Below, in pieces: positions 1,570 to 12,935 of a stretch of DNA of 45,458 nt (position 1 is its first letter; each line of letters opens with the position of its first letter). The notes below the pieces were generated by a model. The model had not been told where the DNA came from. It saw nothing but the letters and a program-made list of their open reading frames with translations, and searched no databases. The stretch comes from a bacterium (GTDB taxonomy: Bacteria > Bacteroidota > Bacteroidia > Chitinophagales > Chitinophagaceae), in the NCBI GenBank assembly GCA_027364635.1, contig DAHXOZ010000006.1, positions 1 through 45,458 of the forward strand, read 5' to 3'. Made by a program: the position numbers and the translations under genes.

Positions 1570-4500
1570 TTATGTTTCAGTTACTGTTTCTATGCTGTTA
1601 TTTTTTTTATTTTTTTTCCCGGAAAATAGAATATAGAGTGCCGGTAAAACGATCAGGGTTAAAGCTGTTGCAGAGAAGATGCCGCCAATAACTACTGTAG
1701 CTAATGGTCGTTGTACTTCAGCTCCCTGTGAAGTGGCAAGCGCCATGGGTAAAAATCCCAAGGCAGCGAGAAACGAGGCCATTAACACGGGCCGCAGAAT
1801 AGCTCTTGTACCGTGTATCACTCTTTCTTTCACATCTGCCATTCCTTCCTTTTGAAGCTTGTTGAAATAATTGACAAGTACAATTCCGAACAGAACTGCT
1901 ACTCCGAAAAGAGCAATAAATCCAACACCCGCACTAATACTAAAGTTTATCCCACGCATCCATAGAGCGAATACGCCGCCGATTGCTGAAAAGGGAATGG
2001 CGGTATAAATGAGCAATGCCTGCTTTACAGAGTCAAAGGCTGCGTACAATAATAAAAATATCAGCACGAGTGCGATCGGTACGGCTATCATTAAGCGTTG
2101 AGTGGCTTTAACGAGATTTTCAAACTGGCCGCCATAAGTATAATAATATCCTGTTGGAAGTTTTACCTGTTCCCCTAACTTTCTTGAAATCTCTTCCACC
2201 ACAGATTTTACATCCCTTCCACGTACATTAATACCAATCACAATTCTTCTCTTTGCATCTTCCCTGCTTATTTGTGCAGGCCCGTTTACATAATCAATTG
2301 TGGCTACTTGTTTAAGTGGGATTTGCCCTCCACTAGGTAAAGGGACAAAAAGATTACGTACATCTTCAATGTCTTGCCTTTGTGCTTCACTTAACCGTAC
2401 TACTAAATCGAATTTTCGCTCATTTTCAAAAACAGTACCTGCTTTTTCTCCGGCAAAGGCTGTGCGAAGAATGCGATTCAAATCCTGGATATTTAAACTG
2501 TATTGGGCAACGCGGTCACGATTATAAGCCACAGTAATCTGTGGTAAACCCGTCACTTTTTCTACCTGTGGAGAAGCGACTCCTTCGACTGTTTCAATTA
2601 CTTTAGCAGTTTTGTCTGCATAAAAAGCAAGCGAGTCAAGATTTTCGCCGAAAATCTTAACAGCTATATCCTGTTTTACCCCGGTCATCAATTCATTAAA
2701 GCGCATTTGTATTGGCTGAGAGGCTTCGAAAGACACTCCGGGAATTACTCTAAGTGCTTTCAGCATGGTGTCTTGTAAAGTTTCCCTGCTGTGTGCTGTT
2801 GTCCATTCTTTTTGGTCTTTTAAAATAACAGTAATGTCACTGGCTTCGGGCGGCATTGGGTCAGTAGGAATTTCCGCACTGCCGGTTTTACTAACTACTT
2901 CTTTTACTTCAGGGAAACGAAGTAAAATCGTTTCTACCTGTTTATTATTATCAAGGCTTTGAGACAGGGATGAACCTTGCGGCAAAATAGAACTAAAAGT
3001 AAAATCGCCCTCTTCAAGTGTTGGAATGAACTCTCCGCCTAATCTTGAAAAGATGAAAACTGTTGCTATTAGAAATAATACAGCAATTCCGATTACCGCG
3101 AATTTTCTCTTAATAGCAAAATTGATCAGCGGCCTATATCCTCTTTGAAATAAATCCATCAGCTTGTCACTAAAATTCTTTTTATGCGTAGTTTTTTTGC
3201 TAAGCACTAAAGAGCTCATCATCGGAATGTAGGTAAGTGAAAGTATCAATGCACCAATTACTGCGAATGAGACGGTCATGGCCATAGGGCCAAACATTTT
3301 TCCTTCAATACCAACAAGGGTCAAAATAGGAATGTAAACTATTAGAATAATAAATTGTCCGAAAGTAGAGCTGCTGGCTACACTGGAAGCAGACTCATAT
3401 ACCTCGCTGTTCATTTGCTCTGCTGTAAGCATACCAGCGCCCTTGTGATGCCGGTGGCTTTGTGTAATTCGGTGCAGCACTGCTTCAACAATAATTACAG
3501 CGCCATCCACTATTAATCCAAAATCCAAAGCGCCAAGTGACATAAGATTTCCTGAAACATGAAATAAATTCATTAGGATAACCGCAAACAACATAGCGAG
3601 GGGAATAACCGAGGCTACTAAAAGCCCTGCTCTAAAATTCCCAAGAAGAAGAACCAACACGAAAATTACGATCAACGCACCATCTAAAAGATTGCTTTCG
3701 ACTGTTGCTATACTTTTATTAACCAGTACAGTACGGTCAAGGTAAGGCTCAATTCTAACCCCTGCTGGTAAAGATTTCTGAATATCCGGCAGTTTATTTT
3801 TTATGGCTTCCACTACATCAGCGCTGTTTGCGCCTTTTAGCAGCATTACTACGCCGCCAACAACTTCTCCTTCTCCATTGCGTGTCATAGCGCCGTAACG
3901 AATGGCGCTTCCAAATTGAACAGTTGCCACATCCCGAATAAGAACGGGCGTTCCGTTAGGATTTGTTTTTACAACTATTTTACCAATATCTTCCAAAGAG
4001 GTAACCAAACCCAACCCGCGTATAAAATAAGCATTGGGTTTTTTATCTATGTAAGCCCCGCCCGTATTTTCATTATTTTTTTCCAATGCATCAAACACCT
4101 GTGGTATGGTTATATCCATACTCTTTAGCTTGATAGGATCAATGGCCACTTCATATTGTTTTAACAAGCCGCCAAAGCTGTTCACCTCTGCAACACCCGG
4201 CGTTCCTAAAATTCTTCTTGCTACCACCCAGTCCTGCAATGTTCGTAAATCGGATGCACTGTATTTATTTTCATATCCTTTGTCAGGACGAATCACATAT
4301 TGATAGATTTCCCCTAACCCTGTACTTACGGGCCCCATTTCGGGTGTACCGGTACCTGGTGGTATTTCTCCTTCAGCCTCTTTAATTCTCTGGGCTACCA
4401 GTTGCCGTGCAAAATATATATCTACATTGTCTTTGAATACAATAGTAATTACTGATAGTCCAAAACGGCTAATGCTCCGGATTTCAACTAAGTCAGGCAG

Positions 4501-4725
4501 TGTAGCCATGCTGCGTTCTATAGGGAAAGTCACAAATTGTTCAACTTCCTGAGAAGCAAGGGTAGGGCTCGTTGTAATAACCTGTACCTGATTGTTGGTA
4601 ATGTCAGGCACTGCATCAATAGGAAGCTGGGTTAATGAATAGGTTCCATAGATGATTAATGCTATGGTGAAAAGGCCGATTGCAAATTTATTTTTTATTG
4701 AGAATTGAATGATTTTATTGATCAT
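1570..4725 (-). CDS. czcA: Heavy-metal efflux RND transporter permease (CzcA/CusA family)
   Basis: 1051 aa; KLPIDAVPDITNNQVQV-type N-terminus (QLPIDAVPDITNNQVQV), DFGLIVDGAVIIVEA, GGEFIPTLEEGDF; full-length RND. Confidence 0.95.
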   Translation of the reverse strand: MINKIIQFSIKNKFAIGLFTIALIIYGTYSLTQLPIDAVPDITNNQVQVITTSPTLASQEVEQFVTFPIERSMATLPDLVEIRSISRFGLSVITIVFKDNVDIYFARQLVAQRIKEAEGEIPPGTGTPEMGPVSTGLGEIYQYVIRPDKGYENKYSASDLRTLQDWVVARRILGTPGVAEVNSFGGLLKQYEVAIDPIKLKSMDITIPQVFDALEKNNENTGGAYIDKKPNAYFIRGLGLVTSLEDIGKIVVKTNPNGTPVLIRDVATVQFGSAIRYGAMTRNGEGEVVGGVVMLLKGANSADVVEAIKNKLPDIQKSLPAGVRIEPYLDRTVLVNKSIATVESNLLDGALIVIFVLVLLLGNFRAGLLVASVIPLAMLFAVILMNLFHVSGNLMSLGALDFGLIVDGAVIIVEAVLHRITQSHRHHKGAGMLTAEQMNSEVYESASSVASSSTFGQFIILIVYIPILTLVGIEGKMFGPMAMTVSFAVIGALILSLTYIPMMSSLVLSKKTTHKKNFSDKLMDLFQRGYRPLINFAIKRKFAVIGIAVLFLIATVFIFSRLGGEFIPTLEEGDFTFSSILPQGSSLSQSLDNNKQVETILLRFPEVKEVVSKTGSAEIPTDPMPPEASDITVILKDQKEWTTAHSRETLQDTMLKALRVIPGVSFEASQPIQMRFNELMTGVKQDIAVKIFGENLDSLAFYADKTAKVIETVEGVASPQVEKVTGLPQITVAYNRDRVAQYSLNIQDLNRILRTAFAGEKAGTVFENERKFDLVVRLSEAQRQDIEDVRNLFVPLPSGGQIPLKQVATIDYVNGPAQISREDAKRRIVIGINVRGRDVKSVVEEISRKLGEQVKLPTGYYYTYGGQFENLVKATQRLMIAVPIALVLIFLLLYAAFDSVKQALLIYTAIPFSAIGGVFALWMRGINFSISAGVGFIALFGVAVLFGIVLVNYFNKLQKEGMADVKERVIHGTRAILRPVLMASFLAALGFLPMALATSQGAEVQRPLATVVIGGIFSATALTLIVLPALYILFSGKKNKKNNSIETVTET

Positions 4726-4736
4726 ACTTTAAGGAA

Positions 4737-4937
4737 TTAATATTTAGTCACGAGCTGGTAGTATCTAATGATTATAGCTATAATTGCGCCTATCATTAAA
4801 ATGGACAGGAGGATTATAGTAATAGTCCTGATAACCCTGAACCTGGGCCGGGAAGAAACTCTGCGTTTCTTTTTACTAAATTTTGTGGTCAAAATTGGCG
4901 TATGTAAAAAATGAAACAGGATTGCCTGTTTAAGCAA
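4737..4937 (-). CDS. Small single-TM protein upstream of czcA (copy 1); ATG start uncertain, conserved part begins near LTTKFSKKKRRVSSRPRF
   Basis: ORF MLKQAILFHFLHTPILTTKFSKKKRRVSSRPRFRVIRTITIILLSILMIGAIIAIIIRYYQLVTKY; frame preserved without indels in copy 2 at 12400-12560. Confidence 0.5.
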   Translation of the reverse strand: MLKQAILFHFLHTPILTTKFSKKKRRVSSRPRFRVIRTITIILLSILMIGAIIAIIIRYYQLVTKY

Positions 4938-4965
4938 ATAAAAGAATAAGCTTTATGTAAGAATA

Positions 4966-5280
4966 TTACGCCAATTGAGGTGGTTGCCAGATAGACAATG
5001 AAATCTCTTTAATAAAGGATGAATAGAAGGTGTTATACCTTTTTATTAATTCAGGTTTAACAGGAATTAATTTCGCTATTTTTTGGGGAACAGGAAAACC
5101 AGCACAACAAGTGCAAATACAAAATGGTGAGCAGGCATCTTTGGTTGTACGGTTCGTCTGTTGATGATTTGATTTTTGTATTTCTGTTTTTACTTTACTC
5201 ATAGCCTTAGCTCCATCAGCACAGGGTATTATGCTCATCGCCAAAACTATAACCGCTAATATGAAAGCTAAAAATTTCAC
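4966..5280 (-). CDS. Small secreted Cys-rich protein, DUF6660-like (CC...PP layout), copy 1
   Basis: 104 aa; signal peptide MKFLAFILAVIVLAMSIIPCADG, CSPFCICTCC, C-terminus SIWQPPQLA; paralogue of 12624-12935. Confidence 0.75.
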   Translation of the reverse strand: MKFLAFILAVIVLAMSIIPCADGAKAMSKVKTEIQKSNHQQTNRTTKDACSPFCICTCCAGFPVPQKIAKLIPVKPELIKRYNTFYSSFIKEISLSIWQPPQLA

Positions 5281-5404
5281 GGGTGCAAAAATAGTCTTTT
5301 ACTTTAAATAAATTTTCCAGAAAAGCAAAATATTGAAAATTGCTATTAAAAGCAATCTTTTCTTAAAAATATTTATTTTGGGGAACAGGCAACAAATTAA
5401 CTTT

Positions 5405-5509
5405 TTACAAACTCAATTTTATGCCTGCATTATAGACAAATCCTTCCAAGGCTGCATAGATATATTTAAAGATCGGGTTAGTAATTGTTCCGGTGTAATG
5501 GCTCTCAAA
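5405..5509 (-). pseudogene. Possible 3' remnant of an outer-membrane beta-barrel/receptor gene
   Basis: Minus-strand frame after a TGA reads STKFESHYTGTITNPIFKYIYAALEGFVYNAGIKLSL*; barrel-like C-terminal style, no start codon or upstream body. Confidence 0.25.
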
Positions 5510-5677
5510 TTTTGTTGATCAGCTAAACTAATTGCTGCTTTTTGCTTAATAAAACTCAAGAACCAGCAAGCGCATGGCTTTTTTTATTTCTGTTTTCATT
5601 GCTGTTTATTGGTGCTTTTAGCCCGGAAAGTTTTTAAATAACCCAAATAATTTCGACCAGGCTATTTCATATACAGT

Positions 5678-6034
5678 TCAATTTTTTACCCAACACAAGG
5701 CTTTATCTTTTTCATCTAACTCAAAGAAATTAATTTCTGCCTTAATGAAAGGCCTTATTAAACGTAAAATCAAATAATGCCATTTTTTTTCACAGACCAG
5801 TACTATTTTTTCATAACAGCCGATGTGTTGCAGATCAAATTTTACATCATCCCAAAATGCTTTCATCTGGTATTCTTCAAAACTTACTATTTCAAAATAC
5901 CAACAAATCTTCTTAAATTTTTTTAAAGCATTTGTTATAACCGGCAATAATTTTTTATAATCAGCATCAGTTAACTTATCAAATGCTCTTGTTGCGATGA
6001 TGTTTCCTTTTGTTTCTGCTAAAACTTGTATCAT
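5678..6034 (-). CDS. STAS/SEC14 (SpoIIAA-like) domain protein
   Basis: 118 aa; resembles SpoIIAA-like family (LTDADYKKLLPVITNALKKFKKICWYFEI...WDDVKFDLQH...KIVLVCEKKW). Confidence 0.7.
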   Translation of the reverse strand: MIQVLAETKGNIIATRAFDKLTDADYKKLLPVITNALKKFKKICWYFEIVSFEEYQMKAFWDDVKFDLQHIGCYEKIVLVCEKKWHYLILRLIRPFIKAEINFFELDEKDKALCWVKN

Positions 6035-6067
6035 AAAGATTTTTTTAAGTGATTAAGAGTTGTAAAA

Positions 6068-6098
6068 TGCATGTACCACTTTACTAATGGTACATGCA
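6068..6098. promoter_or_regulatory. Perfect 11-bp inverted repeat with 9-nt loop (operator or terminator hairpin)
   Basis: TGCATGTACCA-ctttactaa-TGGTACATGCA between mgtC and the SpoIIAA-like gene, about 34 bp upstream of the latter's start. Confidence 0.6.
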
Positions 6099-6272
6099 AT
6101 TAAGGCTGCTTCATTTGCTGTGCTCCATGATATGCATGGCAAGCCTGTTTGCATTTAGCTGTTAGCACAATCTAAAAGCTTTGGATGAGAGCTTTATGCT
6201 TGTACCCTGGTGATCTCTATTTTACTGGGTTTCCATTTTATTAAAATTAAGTGTGAAAAAATGATATAGTTG

Positions 6273-6743
6273 TTACTGATCACTTTTGTCAATATTATTA
6301 TCCGTGTTTTTTATCTTGTTCTTCCATTGCATATACCATTTTCTACGTTCTAACGACAACAAAAAATAAATCATTAAAGATGCAGTTATAGCAATGAAAA
6401 ACATATCTAACCCTATGGCTACACCTACAGCAGCGGTACACCAAACAGTAGCTGCTGTAGTTAAACCATGTGAAGACTTTGAGTCCTTGTTCCGGTAAAT
6501 AATTCCGGCTCCCAGAAAGCCAATACCTGTTACGATGTTTGCTACTATTCGCGAAATAGAAGTAACATCATCGTCAATGTTTTCCGCAATAGCAGTAAAC
6601 AGGGTTGCTCCTAAACACACTGCTGCATAGGTTCTTATACCCGCATCTTTTCCCTGTCTTTCCCGGTCCAGGCCAATGAATAAGCCTAAACCAAATGCTA
6701 CAATAAGTTTGGGAATAATGATTAATTCAAATTCTATATTCAT
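6273..6743 (-). CDS. MgtC/SapB family membrane protein
   Basis: 156 aa; GLGLFIGLDRERQGKDAGIRTYAAVCLGATLF...GIGFLGAGIIYR, canonical MgtC signatures. Confidence 0.92.
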   Translation of the reverse strand: MNIEFELIIIPKLIVAFGLGLFIGLDRERQGKDAGIRTYAAVCLGATLFTAIAENIDDDVTSISRIVANIVTGIGFLGAGIIYRNKDSKSSHGLTTAATVWCTAAVGVAIGLDMFFIAITASLMIYFLLSLERRKWYMQWKNKIKNTDNNIDKSDQ

Positions 6744-6794
6744 TTTAGAAGATTTAAAATGATTAGGTTTTAATTATATCTATTTAGCCAATGC

Positions 6795-7994
6795 CTATTC
6801 CTCCTCTTCTGTATTGTGCATTTTAGAAAGTAAATCATAAGCCCCGTTCGTAACTACTTTGCTTTCCATATTAAAGTTGGAAGGCAATTGCACACCGGTA
6901 AAACCGTTTTCAGTAACGGTGATGCCAATTTCAATTTTTCTGAATTTTATATGTTCATCAGCAGTACTATCCTGGCCTTTCGTATTTTGCCCAACTTCTG
7001 CATTTGATTTGTCTTCATCCAGAATAAAAATATAATTTTTGCCGCCAGCCTGAACAACTGCCTTTTGTGGTAAGGCGGTAGTTTGGGAAGCGCCAATTTC
7101 TATGATTGCATTAATAAACATGCCCGGTATAAGAGAAGGCGCCGGATTGATTAACCGGCCACTTACAAGAACGGTTCTGTCGGCATCAATATCTTTACCA
7201 ATCAAAAATATTTCTGCTATGCGTTCTACACTATCCCCTGTGGCTTTAAAGCGTATTTTCTGATTCATCTTTATTTGGGACAGATCCTTTTCAAACACTT
7301 TTACTTTTACCAGTATGTTTTTGGTATTGGCCATATCTGCAAGTACTTCATTAGGGCCAACATATTTTCCTACATTAGAATAAACATGCGTTATGTATCC
7401 GCTAATCGGCGCGTGAATGCTCACACGTGATGTAAAGTTGCCGGACTTTACACTTGCCGGATTAATATTTGCCAACCGCAGTTTAGATTTCAAACCCTCA
7501 ACACGGGCAACCATAGTATTATATTCGCTACCGGCTCTTTGCAAAGATTTCCGGGCTGCAATATTTTCTTTTACCAATTCTTCCTGGCGCGACATATCTT
7601 GTTTCAGAAAAGATAACTGGCTGCTGCTTTCCATATAATCCTGCTGCATTTGTAGAAATTCAGGATTTTCTATTACAGCAATCACCTCTCCCTTTCTTAA
7701 ATATTTACCTTCTATTACCGGCGTGCTTTTTATAATACCGCCGTAATGTGCTGTAATGCTTATGAACTGATTGGGCGGCACATCCAAGGTGCCGGACGCT
7801 TTTATGTAACTACCCAAATTGGTCATGGAAACATTACCCAATTGAACATTTGCATTGTTGTATTGGTCTTGTGAAAATTCTACCAAATTAGGGTCTTGTA
7901 TTTCTGTTACTACCGCTTTTTCTTCTGTTTTGGCGGTGCAGGCTGCAAACAATATGGTGATGGCGAATAAACTTTTATACATTATTTTATACAT
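6795..7994 (-). CDS. czcB: Efflux RND transporter periplasmic adaptor subunit (CzcB-like lipoprotein)
   Basis: 399 aa; lipobox LFAACTAK; MFP motifs; paralogue of 251-1552. Confidence 0.88.
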   Translation of the reverse strand: MYKIMYKSLFAITILFAACTAKTEEKAVVTEIQDPNLVEFSQDQYNNANVQLGNVSMTNLGSYIKASGTLDVPPNQFISITAHYGGIIKSTPVIEGKYLRKGEVIAVIENPEFLQMQQDYMESSSQLSFLKQDMSRQEELVKENIAARKSLQRAGSEYNTMVARVEGLKSKLRLANINPASVKSGNFTSRVSIHAPISGYITHVYSNVGKYVGPNEVLADMANTKNILVKVKVFEKDLSQIKMNQKIRFKATGDSVERIAEIFLIGKDIDADRTVLVSGRLINPAPSLIPGMFINAIIEIGASQTTALPQKAVVQAGGKNYIFILDEDKSNAEVGQNTKGQDSTADEHIKFRKIEIGITVTENGFTGVQLPSNFNMESKVVTNGAYDLLSKMHNTEEEE

Positions 7995-8016
7995 GCTATT
8001 TCTATTTTAATTTTTT

Positions 8017-11000
8017 TTAAAGACCGGAAATTAATTCCAGTTCTATTGCGGTTAAGTTATATTGATTAATTACTTCTATGTATTGACGGCGGACATTGTT
8101 GGCATTGTTTAAAGATTGGGATAATTGATAATAATCAATTTCACCTGCCTCAAATGCTCTTTGAGATTTGTTGATAAGCAATTCTGCCTGTGGCAAAGCG
8201 GTTTTGCGGAAATAGCCGATTTGTATCTGAAGCCTTCTTAAATCTGAAAGAAGCAAGGTGCCTCTTTGGGAAAGACCGAAATAAAATGCCTGTACTTCTG
8301 CTTCACGTATCTGCATATTTATTTCCGCAGCACGTATTTTCGCCTTTTGTGGTTTGGCAAAAAGGGGAATACTGATTCCTGCTTCAATGCCCTGGAACCG
8401 CTTACCTGCACCATAGTATTTTTCCCCTCCATTTTTTGGATGATTGCCCACTAATGACTGATTAAAGTATCCTACGCTAAAATCCGGAAGAAGCCTGGCC
8501 TTCTGCACCTTTATTTCTTTTGCCGCTACTTCTATCTGGCTGCGCAATGATTGCAATACCGGATTGTTTCCCAGGATAGAGCTATCCAAACTTAATAACA
8601 CTGTTTTCTCTTTCAACACGCTATCCTCAATACCTGTGATAGTGGTATCATTCATATACTTGCTTAAGAGTTTTAAGTTCGTGTTGATGTACTCATCTAC
8701 CTGTTGCCGTTGGGCAATGGCTTCCTGCAATTGGGTGTTGGCATTGTATTTTTCCAGAATATTCGTTTCACCGGTATTAAACCGGATCTCAGCAGCTTTT
8801 AAAACCCGTTCATACAAAGTGATTAAGGTATCTGCCAATTTTCGCTGTTCATTCCTGTAAAGCAATTGGTGATAAACATTCTTTACCTGAAAGGCTATCT
8901 GGCTCTGATAAATCTTCAGTTGAGAACGGCTGGCGCCTATAGAGGCATCTGCAAGTTCTTTAAGCCTTTTTAGGTAAACAGGATTTGGAATGTTTTGGGT
9001 AATGGTAATGTTATTGTCGTAAGGTATCGGGCTATTGTACTGCCCGTAAGTGAGGTTGATATTGGTTTTACCGATATCTCCTGTACTTCCTTTTAACGTT
9101 TGCTGATATTCGACACCCAGATTTCCTACTCTCATATTTGGATTAGCACTTAGAGAATTGGTTACTGCTGTCTGCAAATTCACTTTATTACTGACAGGGC
9201 TTTGTGCGTAGGAATAATTGGTACTACCCAACAATAAAAACAATATGGTTATGATAGTAGGAATTGTGGACTTTCTTCTCCTTATCTTTATTTTTTCAAA
9301 CATGGTATAAAGCACCGGCAATACAATGAGCGTTAAGAATGTCGCTGTTATCAATCCACCTATAACAACAGTAGCCAAAGGCTTTTGAACTTCTGCACCG
9401 GCACCATGTGATAATGCCATTGGTAAAAACCCTAACGAAGCAACAGTAGCAGTCATTAATACAGGCCGTAGCCTTGTTGCGGTACCTGTAAGAATAATCT
9501 TGTTCAAATTACGCATACCATTCTTTTTTAGCTGGTTAAACTCACTGACCAGCACAATTCCGTTTAGCACAGCTACCCCAAACAGTGCAATAAATCCAAT
9601 ACCTGCGGAAATACTGAAAGGCATTCCTCTTAGCCATAATGCGAATATGCCACCTATAGCAGATAGGGGAATGGCTGTAAAAATTAATAAGGAATATTTG
9701 ATAGAACCAAAAGCAAAATATAGTAATAAAAGAATCAGGCCCAGCGCTACCGGAACGGCAACAGATAATCGTTTATTAGCTTCTTCCAGGTTTTTGAACT
9801 GGCCGCCATAAGTAATGAAATAGCCCGTGGGCATTTTTATTTTCGCATCAATCTTTTGTTGCATTTCTTTTACCACCGAAGCAATATCCCTGCCTCTTAC
9901 ATTGAAGCCAACGATAATTCTTCGCTTACCATCTTCTCTCTGAATTTGGTTAGGGCCTAATTGAAAGCTTATATTCGCAACCTGTTCCAATGGAATATTT
10001 TTTCCGTCTTTGGTGGTAACAAAAAGCCTTTTTACATCATCTATACTTTGGCGTTCTGCTTCCTGAAGGCGTACTACCAAATCAAATCGCTTTTCTCCTT
10101 CAAATACAGTACCGGCAACACCACCTGCAAATGCGGTGTTAATTGCCTGGTTAATGTCTGAAACATTCAATCCATACTGAGCAATTTTATCACGATTGAG
10201 TTTGATAGAAATCTGTGGCAGTCCGGTTAACTGTTCCAGGTATAAATCCTCCGCACCTTTTACCGTTGGAACGATAGCGCCTATTTTTTTTGATAATTCT
10301 GTTAATACCTGCAGGTCTTCGCCAAATATTTTAATACCCACATCTTGTTTAACACCTGATAATAATTCATTGGACCGCAATTGGATTGGCTGAGAAAACC
10401 CGAATGTAACACCCGGAATTACTTCAAGGCTTTTCTCCATCAGTTCAGTGAGTCCTTCCCGGGTCTCGGCGCTAGTCCATTCTGCTTTTGGCTTTAATAT
10501 AACGGTTACATCAGCAGCCTCAATAGGCATAGGGTCTGTGGGTATTTCAGACGAGCCAATTTTGCCAATCACTTCTTTTACCTCCGGAAATGTTTTCATT
10601 AAAATATCAGAAGCCTGGGTTACTTTATCTATGGATTGGCTTAACGAACTTCCTGTGAGCAACCTGGTTTCAATAGCAAAATCCCCTTCATCCAGGGTGG
10701 GTATAAATTCGCCCCCAAGAGTAGAGAATACAACTAATGAAATAGCCAGAAGGCCTACTGCAATACCCACTACTAATAATCTCATTCGTAAAGCGCCTTT
10801 AATAAGTGGCTCATACCACTTTTGAACGCGAGCCATCATTCTATCAGAAATATTCTTTTTATGACTGATATTCTTACTTAAAAACAAAGAACTAATCATT
10901 GGCACATAAGTAACTGATAAAATTAAAGCGCCCAGGATAGCAAAAGAAACGGTCTCAGCCATTGGCCTGAACATTTTACCTTCCACGCCTACCAATGCAA

Positions 11001-12384
11001 GAATCGGTAAATAAACTATTAGAATAATAATTTGTCCGAAAGCCGCGGAATTCATCATTTTTTTTGATGCAGTACCCACTTCGCTATCCATTTCTGCCTG
11101 GGTTATTCTTCCCGCCTTTCGACGAGCGATATGATGCATGGTAGCTTCTACAATAATGACTGCACCATCCACAATTAATCCAAAATCTATTGCGCCAAGG
11201 CTCATAAGATTGCCGGTTACACCAAACACCTTCATTAAGGAAATAGCAAAAAGCATGGCTAACGGAATCACAGAGGCGACTATCAATCCTGACCGTACAT
11301 TTCCAAGGAAAACGACCAGTACAAAAATTACAATTAATGCTCCTTCCAATAGATTTTTCTCAACAGTACTAATGGCTCTTGCTACAAATTCACTTCTGTC
11401 TAAAAATGGCTCTACAACAACTCCCTCCGGTAGGGATTTATTTATTTGAATCATTTTTTCTTTAACGCTGTTTACAACTGCACTCGCATTGCTTCCTTTT
11501 AACAACATTACAATACCACCTACCGCTTCTTTATCATTCCGGGTGAAGGCGCCATAACGATTAGCAGCACCAAATTTAACAGTGGCTACATCGCGGATGG
11601 TAACCGGAACGCCACTTTCTGTATTCTTTACTACAATTCTTTCAATGTCGCCCAGGTTTGTTATCAGGCCTTCACTTCTTATGAAATAAGCATTTGGTTT
11701 CTTATCAATGTAAGAACCACCGGTGTTTTGATTATTGTTTTCAAGCGCGGTAAATATGTCTGATATGGAAATATTGTAGCTCCTTACCCTGTCAATATTC
11801 AAAGCAATTTCATATTGCTTCAAATAACCGCCAAAGCTATTTACTTCCGCTATACCCGGGGTTCCTAACAATTGTCTTCTTACAATCCAATCCTGAATGG
11901 TGCGCAGGTCCATCGCATTGTATTTGTCTTCATATCCTTTTTTAGCATGTAACACGTATTGGTATATTTCACCCAAACCCGTGGAAATAGGAGCCATTTC
12001 CGGCAGGCCTAAGCCGGGCGCTATAGAATTTTTAGCTTCGGTTATCCGTTCTGATACTTGCTGGCGCGCCCAATAAATATCGGCATCATCATGAAATATT
12101 ACCGTAACTACTGAAAGCCCAAAACGGGAAATGGAACGCACTTCCTCAATTTCAGGAATGGTTGCCATGGTCTGTTCTACGGGGAAAGAAATAAATTGCT
12201 CTACTTCCTGTGCTGCCAGCGAAGGGCTTATTGTAATAATTTGAACCTGGTTATTGGTAATGTCGGGGATAGCGTCTATTGGTAATTTTGAAGCGCTCCA
12301 TGCCCCCCAAATAATAAGGGCGAGCGTAAAAATCCCTATAACCAGTTTATTTTTAATGGAAAAATCAATGATCTTATTTAGCAT
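8017..12384 (-). CDS. czcA: CzcA-CzcC fusion: heavy-metal RND permease fused to a TolC-like outer-membrane factor
   Basis: 1455 aa; about 1030 aa of complete CzcA followed by IRRRKSTIPTIITILFLLLGSTNYSYAQS and an OMF domain (YHQLLYRNEQRKLADTLITLYERVLKAAEIRFNTGETNILEKYNA...). Confidence 0.92.
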   Translation of the reverse strand: MLNKIIDFSIKNKLVIGIFTLALIIWGAWSASKLPIDAIPDITNNQVQIITISPSLAAQEVEQFISFPVEQTMATIPEIEEVRSISRFGLSVVTVIFHDDADIYWARQQVSERITEAKNSIAPGLGLPEMAPISTGLGEIYQYVLHAKKGYEDKYNAMDLRTIQDWIVRRQLLGTPGIAEVNSFGGYLKQYEIALNIDRVRSYNISISDIFTALENNNQNTGGSYIDKKPNAYFIRSEGLITNLGDIERIVVKNTESGVPVTIRDVATVKFGAANRYGAFTRNDKEAVGGIVMLLKGSNASAVVNSVKEKMIQINKSLPEGVVVEPFLDRSEFVARAISTVEKNLLEGALIVIFVLVVFLGNVRSGLIVASVIPLAMLFAISLMKVFGVTGNLMSLGAIDFGLIVDGAVIIVEATMHHIARRKAGRITQAEMDSEVGTASKKMMNSAAFGQIIILIVYLPILALVGVEGKMFRPMAETVSFAILGALILSVTYVPMISSLFLSKNISHKKNISDRMMARVQKWYEPLIKGALRMRLLVVGIAVGLLAISLVVFSTLGGEFIPTLDEGDFAIETRLLTGSSLSQSIDKVTQASDILMKTFPEVKEVIGKIGSSEIPTDPMPIEAADVTVILKPKAEWTSAETREGLTELMEKSLEVIPGVTFGFSQPIQLRSNELLSGVKQDVGIKIFGEDLQVLTELSKKIGAIVPTVKGAEDLYLEQLTGLPQISIKLNRDKIAQYGLNVSDINQAINTAFAGGVAGTVFEGEKRFDLVVRLQEAERQSIDDVKRLFVTTKDGKNIPLEQVANISFQLGPNQIQREDGKRRIIVGFNVRGRDIASVVKEMQQKIDAKIKMPTGYFITYGGQFKNLEEANKRLSVAVPVALGLILLLLYFAFGSIKYSLLIFTAIPLSAIGGIFALWLRGMPFSISAGIGFIALFGVAVLNGIVLVSEFNQLKKNGMRNLNKIILTGTATRLRPVLMTATVASLGFLPMALSHGAGAEVQKPLATVVIGGLITATFLTLIVLPVLYTMFEKIKIRRRKSTIPTIITILFLLLGSTNYSYAQSPVSNKVNLQTAVTNSLSANPNMRVGNLGVEYQQTLKGSTGDIGKTNINLTYGQYNSPIPYDNNITITQNIPNPVYLKRLKELADASIGASRSQLKIYQSQIAFQVKNVYHQLLYRNEQRKLADTLITLYERVLKAAEIRFNTGETNILEKYNANTQLQEAIAQRQQVDEYINTNLKLLSKYMNDTTITGIEDSVLKEKTVLLSLDSSILGNNPVLQSLRSQIEVAAKEIKVQKARLLPDFSVGYFNQSLVGNHPKNGGEKYYGAGKRFQGIEAGISIPLFAKPQKAKIRAAEINMQIREAEVQAFYFGLSQRGTLLLSDLRRLQIQIGYFRKTALPQAELLINKSQRAFEAGEIDYYQLSQSLNNANNVRRQYIEVINQYNLTAIELELISGL

Positions 12385-12399
12385 TTTTAAAGAGGGTTA

Positions 12400-12561
12400 T
12401 TATTTAGTCACAAGCTCGTAGTATCTAATGATTACAGCTATGATTGCGCGTATCATCAAAATGGACAGGATGATTATAGTAATTGTTCTAATAATCCTGA
12501 ACCTTGGCCGGGAAGAAACTTTACGTTTCTTTTTACTAAATTTTGTGGTCAAAATTGGCGT
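12400..12561 (-). CDS. Small single-TM protein upstream of czcA (copy 2); start codon unclear (candidate TTG)
   Basis: Reverse frame reads LTTKFSKKKRKVSSRPRFRIIRTITIIILSILMIRAIIAVIIRYYELVTK*; colinear with copy 1 without indels; not in the supplied ORF list because it lacks an ATG. Confidence 0.45.
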   Translation of the reverse strand, partial: TPILTTKFSKKKRKVSSRPRFRIIRTITIIILSILMIRAIIAVIIRYYELVTK

Positions 12562-12623
12562 GTTGCAAAATGAAACAGGATTACCTGTTTAAGCAAATAA
12601 AAGAATAATCTTAGGGGAGAGTA

Positions 12624-12935
12624 TTACGCCAATTTGGGTGGTTGCCAGACAGACAATGAAATTCCTTTAATAAAGGATGAATAGATGGTGTTATACCTTT
12701 TTTTTAATTCAGGTTTAACAAGAATTAATTTCGCTATAACCTGGGGAATGGGTGAATCCGTACAGCATGAACAACTGCAAATAGGAGGGCAGGTATCATT
12801 TAGCGGATTGTCATGCTGATAAGACGTTTTTGTTATCTCTGTCGTTGCCTTACTATTCATTGTATTTGCATCAGTACATGGCACTACGCTAAGTACTAAA
12901 ATTACAAGAGCTAATATGGAGGCTATAAATTTCAA
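12624..12935 (-). CDS. Small secreted Cys-rich protein, DUF6660-like (CC...PP layout), copy 2
   Basis: 103 aa; signal peptide, CPPICSCSCC, C-terminus SVWQPPKLA; paralogue of 4966-5280. Confidence 0.75.
   Translation of the reverse strand: MKFIASILALVILVLSVVPCTDANTMNSKATTEITKTSYQHDNPLNDTCPPICSCSCCTDSPIPQVIAKLILVKPELKKRYNTIYSSFIKGISLSVWQPPKLA

Follow-up and report, generated by a model that had tools for sequence, protein, structure and literature searches.

A conserved micro-protein gene between DUF6660 and czcA in Chitinophagaceae metal-resistance operons, a candidate pump-side accessory

The window, by which we mean the whole 45,458-nt stretch analyzed here (contig DAHXOZ010000006.1 from a member of the Chitinophagaceae), is a metal-resistance region that also contains CopA-type ATPase, multicopper oxidase, MerT-like and ArsR-like genes. 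Two operons in it are built alike, with a DUF6660 gene, a micro-ORF and a gene for a heavy-metal RND permease in this order (Table 1). An earlier note on this DNA had reported a duplicated micro-ORF directly upstream of both czcA genes, and both the coordinates and the downstream CzcA/CusA genes agreed with that report. The gap between the micro-ORF stop codon and the ATG of the pump gene is 11 nt for copy 1 (ATG at 4725) and 15 nt for copy 2 (ATG at 12384). The absence of an ATG, which had been noticed in copy 2, is equally true of copy 1: neither has an upstream ATG and both begin with TTG. The start codon is TTG throughout the window clade, GTG at the aligned codon in genome G178, and mostly ATG elsewhere; because the ATG or GTG of homologues aligns with the TTG, the start of the micro-ORF is well placed.

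Table 1 Features of the two DUF6660–micro-ORF–czcA operons in the window
Feature	Position	Strand	Remarks
Micro-ORF copy 1	4737..4892	minus	TTG start at 4892, stop 4737-4739; 51 codons/51 aa; basic N-terminus, one TM helix; homologues found
Micro-ORF copy 2	12400..12552	minus	TTG start at 12552, stop 12400-12402; 50 codons/50 aa
czcA/cusA-type heavy-metal RND permease gene, 3' of copy 1	1570..4725	minus	1051 aa; TIGR00914 and PF00873 above cut-off
cusA/czcA-type RND permease gene with fused TolC-like (OEP) domain, 3' of copy 2	8017..12384	minus	1455 aa; profile matches including TIGR00914
DUF6660 gene, 5' of copy 1	4966..5280	minus	PF20365 above cut-off; putative secreted Cys-rich protein, end WQPPQLA
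DUF6660 gene, 5' of copy 2	12624..12935	minus	PF20365 above cut-off
Shared block, copy 1 side (approximate)	4739..5085	minus	85-93% DNA identity; 3' part of DUF6660 gene, spacer and micro-ORF; sliding identity
Shared block, copy 2 side (approximate)	12399..12744	minus	Sliding identity
Predicted stem, copy 1	4893..4976	minus	AATTGGCGTA (4967-4976) with TACGCCAATT (4893-4902); MFE fold
Same predicted stem, copy 2	12552..12635	minus	12626-12635 with 12552-12561; MFE fold

Comparison of the two micro-ORF copies revealed exactly 14 substitutions and no indels over 150 nt, in line with the count made by eye in the earlier note, and the majority of the changes were synonymous, as it had also proposed (8 versus 6 nonsynonymous; 5, 1 and 8 at the first, second and third codon positions). 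The NG86 estimates were dS 0.26 and dN 0.05, a ratio of 0.21 (Fisher p = 0.005). A small indel indeed lies just upstream of the TTG, but the DNA similarity does not begin there, since it starts inside the DUF6660 gene. Sliding identity between the copies was 85–93% over a stretch that begins about 360 nt before czcA and ends with the micro-ORF, and 55–75% on the flanks; the two operons have a homogenized block of about 340 bp that comprises the end of DUF6660, the spacer and the micro-ORF. Because the similarity extends over the spacer and the DUF6660 end, the two copies in the window provide weak evidence for a frame by themselves, and their likeness proves little against a conserved untranslated sequence or a chance frame that was shared through recent block duplication or conversion.

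We therefore turn to the wider family, which was collected by a blind six-frame profile search of 399 genomes from the family of the window. Homologues were present in 55 of these genomes and in 33 of 104 genera (E ≤ 1e-3, the threshold for genome counts), with a few outside the family, where G633, G403 and G693 carry the micro-gene in the same place; hosts include Flavisolibacter nicotianae, Cnuella takakiae, three Sediminibacterium species, Niastella vici and Paraflavitalea pollutisoli. Among the 52 strong hits (E ≤ 4e-8), 49 were located directly upstream of czcA, mostly at a distance of 3–17 nt, and order- and phylum-level searches done earlier agree with this linkage. A single-sequence search of 100 relatives was positive for one congeneric genome and for three genomes from other genera; every match lay between DUF6660 and czcA, and those in other genera start with ATG. 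The profile was built stepwise from its own hits, so that members recruited late depend on those found early; adjacency to czcA was never a criterion in the genome searches, and it is therefore independent evidence. Such placement across dozens of genomes strongly supports the proposal that this is a conserved single-TM microprotein gene associated with RND metal pumps.

The remaining 3 of the 52 strong hits, as well as a second copy in G633, had no adjacent czcA. The copy in G964 lies between DUF6660 and a Fur-like gene and that in G800 follows a metal P-type ATPase gene, these neighbors being identified by eye and not by profile. The second G633 copy (L060; G633:C1, ~4076699) follows a DtxR/MntR-like gene, again assigned by eye, and all that resembles czcA in its vicinity is a short fragment. 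Hits without czcA in the weak range (E 1e-4 to 0.01) look like chance basic-plus-TM stretches and were set aside (for example L027, L030, L032–L036 and L043, and further L045, L046, L048–L058, L062, L187 and L188). A query of PLSDB with one member gave no match that would indicate plasmid spread. One typical Chitinophagaceae czcA operon was found on a contig titled Williamsia sp., of the Actinomycetota (L069; JADCRZ010000007.1), which is probably a mislabelled bin.

Analysis of substitutions across the family revealed that one frame is under purifying selection on its amino-acid sequence, as found in protein-coding genes. The dN/dS ratio was 0–0.4 for most other homologue pairs, and in seven pooled pairs 92 of 253 synonymous sites were changed versus 72 of 866 nonsynonymous sites (p about 1e-24); G403 and G693 encode an identical micro-protein despite 9 synonymous changes. 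All 36 curated members have this frame open, whereas each of the other five frames carries stops in 34–36 of them, a control that is not independent because the members had been collected by their open frame. (Row L020, which has a nonsense codon, bears an artificial initial M in alignment A2 and was excluded from A3; the curated set includes L020 with no added M.) Conservation of the frame in other genomes had been named beforehand as a decisive test, and dozens of genomes keep it; the second test named, dN/dS, gave values far below 1 (about 0.2 for the window pair), so the gene withstood both. At the level of sequence comparison, it is the wider homologue family and not the window pair that proves the coding frame, and on this ground the micro-ORFs are genuine genes rather than chance frames. 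The untranslated or chance-frame explanation is practically excluded, having already been refuted by family-wide data: with homologues of as little as 21–40% identity included, the profile recovered the gene in this position in 33 genera and with these low dN/dS ratios.

The members are 38–65 aa long, and the hydropathy of the TM segment is at least 2.6 in 36 of 36 curated sequences. Net charge has a median of +9 on the N-terminal side of the TM segment and +2 on its C-terminal side, and by the positive-inside rule an N-in topology is predicted. AlphaFold2 gave one helix at residues 17–50 with a mean pLDDT of 80 (94–96 over residues 21–40) and a low-confidence basic N-terminus, and the basic N-terminus plus single TM helix originally described is thus borne out by charge, hydropathy and structure prediction. 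Two C-terminal types occur, YYrLV(T/S)K and H(F/Y)(F/Y)RxxTK. The best conserved columns are the helix alanine A36, the aromatic pair 44–45, the proline before the helix and the basic positions. Conservation around the helix showed no 100-degree periodicity (p 0.95); with no preferred face, a fixed packing surface finds no support. Searches of Pfam, NCBIfam, PHROGs and PDB gave chance-level matches only, and neither 21 members against Pfam nor the family profile against PDB chains, both at E ≤ 1, matched AcrZ.

In the window clade, MFE folds of the leader contained a 10-bp stem that joins the last DUF6660 codons to the start of the micro-ORF. In copy 1 this stem closes beside the TTG and encloses the hairpin AAACAGG-CAAT-CCTGTTT (4914–4931), whose loop is CAAT in one window copy and TAAT in the other, and a terminator-like scan also matched a hairpin in the copy 1 spacer. 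Together with a gap to czcA of just 3–17 nt, these features would suit a translated cis-acting leader, in which coupling, a stem hiding the TTG or targeting of the mRNA to the membrane sets czcA translation and the peptide has no job afterwards. We consider such a leader improbable, because the TM segment and C-terminus are under strong selection at the amino-acid level (the protein kept identical through 9 synonymous changes being the clearest pair), because copies without a downstream czcA exist, because the leader has no Rfam match, and because the stem was absent from the MFE folds of leaders beyond the close relatives of the window. By eye, the stem can still pair through G-U changes in L063 and L066; the minimum-energy fold of L066 differs.

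The micro-gene is not a constant part of these operons. In 30 DUF6660 loci sampled from the family, czcA was the next gene in 25, and a clear micro-gene homologue was present in 7 of the 25, one of them frameshifted. The other 18 DUF6660–czcA operons contained no basic-plus-TM ORF before czcA, one having a weak 16-bit profile match only; about two thirds of the sampled family DUF6660–czcA operons are without the micro-gene. Broken copies include that of G196, with an in-frame TAA at codon 3 and, compared with its close relative L025, a dN/dS of 0.87, and the frameshifted genes of G334 and G049; single frameshifts may be assembly errors, since some of these genomes are probably metagenome bins. 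The absences and broken copies suggest that the micro-gene is useful but dispensable. Near-identical czcA loci with DUF6660 and without the micro-gene were found in L081–L096 (Sphingobacterium, Weeksella, Flavobacterium, Vaginella and others), and these look like the result of recent horizontal transfer across several families; L092, which falls within this numbering, is an unrelated locus that does have the micro-gene.

To relate the micro-protein to its neighbors, distances were compared by Mantel tests over 43 non-redundant operons, in which the micro-protein was correlated with DUF6660 (r 0.33, p 0.0002) and hardly with CzcA (r 0.08, p 0.04). Pumps that are 97–98% alike can accompany micro-proteins about 30% alike (L017 versus L031: CzcA 98%, micro-protein 33%), and pumps about 65% alike can accompany micro-proteins 85–88% alike, as in L016 versus L145 (CzcA 65%, micro-protein 85%) and in the two operons of the window (66% and 88%). 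In several pairs, and in both directions, sliding DNA identity broke at the junction of the micro-gene and czcA, where czcA starts. In a tree of 118 CzcA rows, operons with the micro-gene clustered, and at least 7–8 gains or losses were needed. Co-evolution of the micro-protein with CzcA was rejected by the Mantel tests and sliding identity. Our reading of the sequences is that an upstream module has stayed in place while the pumps below it were exchanged, or that the module was copied between operons; in either scenario the micro-protein would work with quite different pumps. Since its lineage follows DUF6660 and not CzcA, any contact with the pump would have to be generic, tolerating pumps only about 65% identical. 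Carried further, DUF6660 and the micro-protein could form a portable, pump-agnostic upstream module that acts as a general adaptor or regulator in Chitinophagaceae while metal RND pumps are swapped by recombination at the junction, a proposal that we advance tentatively and rate somewhat below an even chance.

The tracking of DUF6660 rather than CzcA would also be expected of a small membrane protein that serves the metal-stress response independently of the pump, shares only the operon with it and has DUF6660, a sensor, a protease such as FtsH or the membrane itself as its partner; the few copies away from czcA (G964, G800 and G633) and the service of a single micro-protein type to very different pumps are consistent with it. 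However, the placement of 49 of 52 strong hits immediately before czcA is far closer to the pump start than a shared operon would by itself require, and on balance we regard pump independence as unlikely.

Given the position, the coupling distance and the precedents, the most likely role is that of a pump-side membrane accessory similar to AcrZ or the WatS peptides, tolerant of different pumps and made with the pump, and by analogy with these systems we put it at about an even chance. Such a micro-gene would be co-transcribed, and probably translationally coupled, with the downstream metal RND permease. Its product would have some 10–30 disordered, strongly basic cytoplasmic residues, one inner-membrane TM helix and a short C-terminal end of the YYxLVTK or HFYRH type, most likely periplasmic, and may lie beside the permease in the membrane, adjusting its assembly, stability or activity. 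What we infer from these data is translation and topology of the micro-protein, its binding to the pump and an effect on metal export. Measured against an AcrZ-like functional class, the micro-protein has the size, the single TM helix and the genetic link to an RND permease, and lacks co-evolution with the permease.

The earlier note had inferred, by analogy, a possible pump-subunit role like that of AcrZ or KdpF. KdpF is a small one-TM protein whose gene lies just before the transporter gene in KdpFABC, and no micro-protein had a KdpF profile match in Pfam. This comparison turned out to be poor, because KdpF is integral to one fixed complex, whereas the micro-gene is optional, swaps between operons, is absent from many related DUF6660–czcA operons and is decoupled from CzcA. 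AcrZ of E. coli (49 aa) resembles the micro-protein in its length of about 50 aa, its one TM helix and its association with an RND permease, but it has no detectable sequence relation in Pfam and PDB profile searches. AcrZ is oriented N-out/C-in, whereas the micro-protein is predicted to have its basic N-terminus inside; furthermore, the micro-gene immediately precedes the pump gene, which here encodes a heavy-metal RND permease. AcrZ modulates the substrate range of AcrB (PMC7267776, PMC10710835). The WatS1–WatS4 peptides of Methylomonas sp. DH-1, of about 50 aa with one TM domain, act with the RND pump WatABO, and their effect on tolerance was seen only when the pump was present, binding not being shown (PMC10355033). 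By description, they resemble the micro-proteins as unannotated smORFs with one TM domain in multiple copies (PMC10355033). In contrast, the watS genes are intergenic and distant from the pump genes, gammaproteobacterial, and linked to a weak-acid pump.

YajC occurs widely, is associated with Sec and has a Pfam family of its own, which the micro-proteins did not match in the Pfam search. This small single-TM protein has been reported at the membrane surface of AcrB (PMC10710835). MgtU, MgtR and MgtS are regulators of about 30 aa that protect Mg transporters from FtsH or expose them to it (PMC10710835). They are alike in being small proteins that act on a metal transporter, but the transporter class is another and no sequence relation was found. 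To our knowledge, very few small TM partners of RND pumps have been described, mainly AcrZ and the WatS peptides, and in the open literature (subscription journals being outside the coverage) we found no such partner of CzcA/CusA-type metal pumps, no paper with DUF6660 and no account of the micro-protein, which suggests a so far undescribed pump-side accessory. Spread over at least 33 genera, missed by the profile libraries tried and in some genomes starting with TTG or GTG, this cis-encoded family would offer a compact system for the tuning of metal export, and its naturally present, absent, broken and swapped versions provide ready-made comparisons across genomes.

Some loci showed further variation around the micro-gene. 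In L028 (G031:C62) the micro-ORF, at about 1420–1641, is open in frame into CzcA (czcA from 1642), giving a frame of 1530 residues. This is a possible natural fusion of the micro-protein with CzcA; since a basic N-in helix would clash with the CzcA topology, re-initiation at the czcA ATG is equally likely. L012 (G048:C11) contains a second basic one-TM micro-ORF (MKRKNKRNPKWGFKEKAFAVFLILLSIFLVYWMWLIIKQYNQRLKDIDNAQQNH), which has no Pfam match, between the first micro-ORF and czcA. Another basic one-TM micro-ORF (MKRKKQPATKGKTKKENKS...; L061, G054:C5:89235-89351) precedes DUF6660 in this operon region of G054, and a similar weak hit, located by profile only, occupies the corresponding place in G320 (G320:C13:608278-608394).
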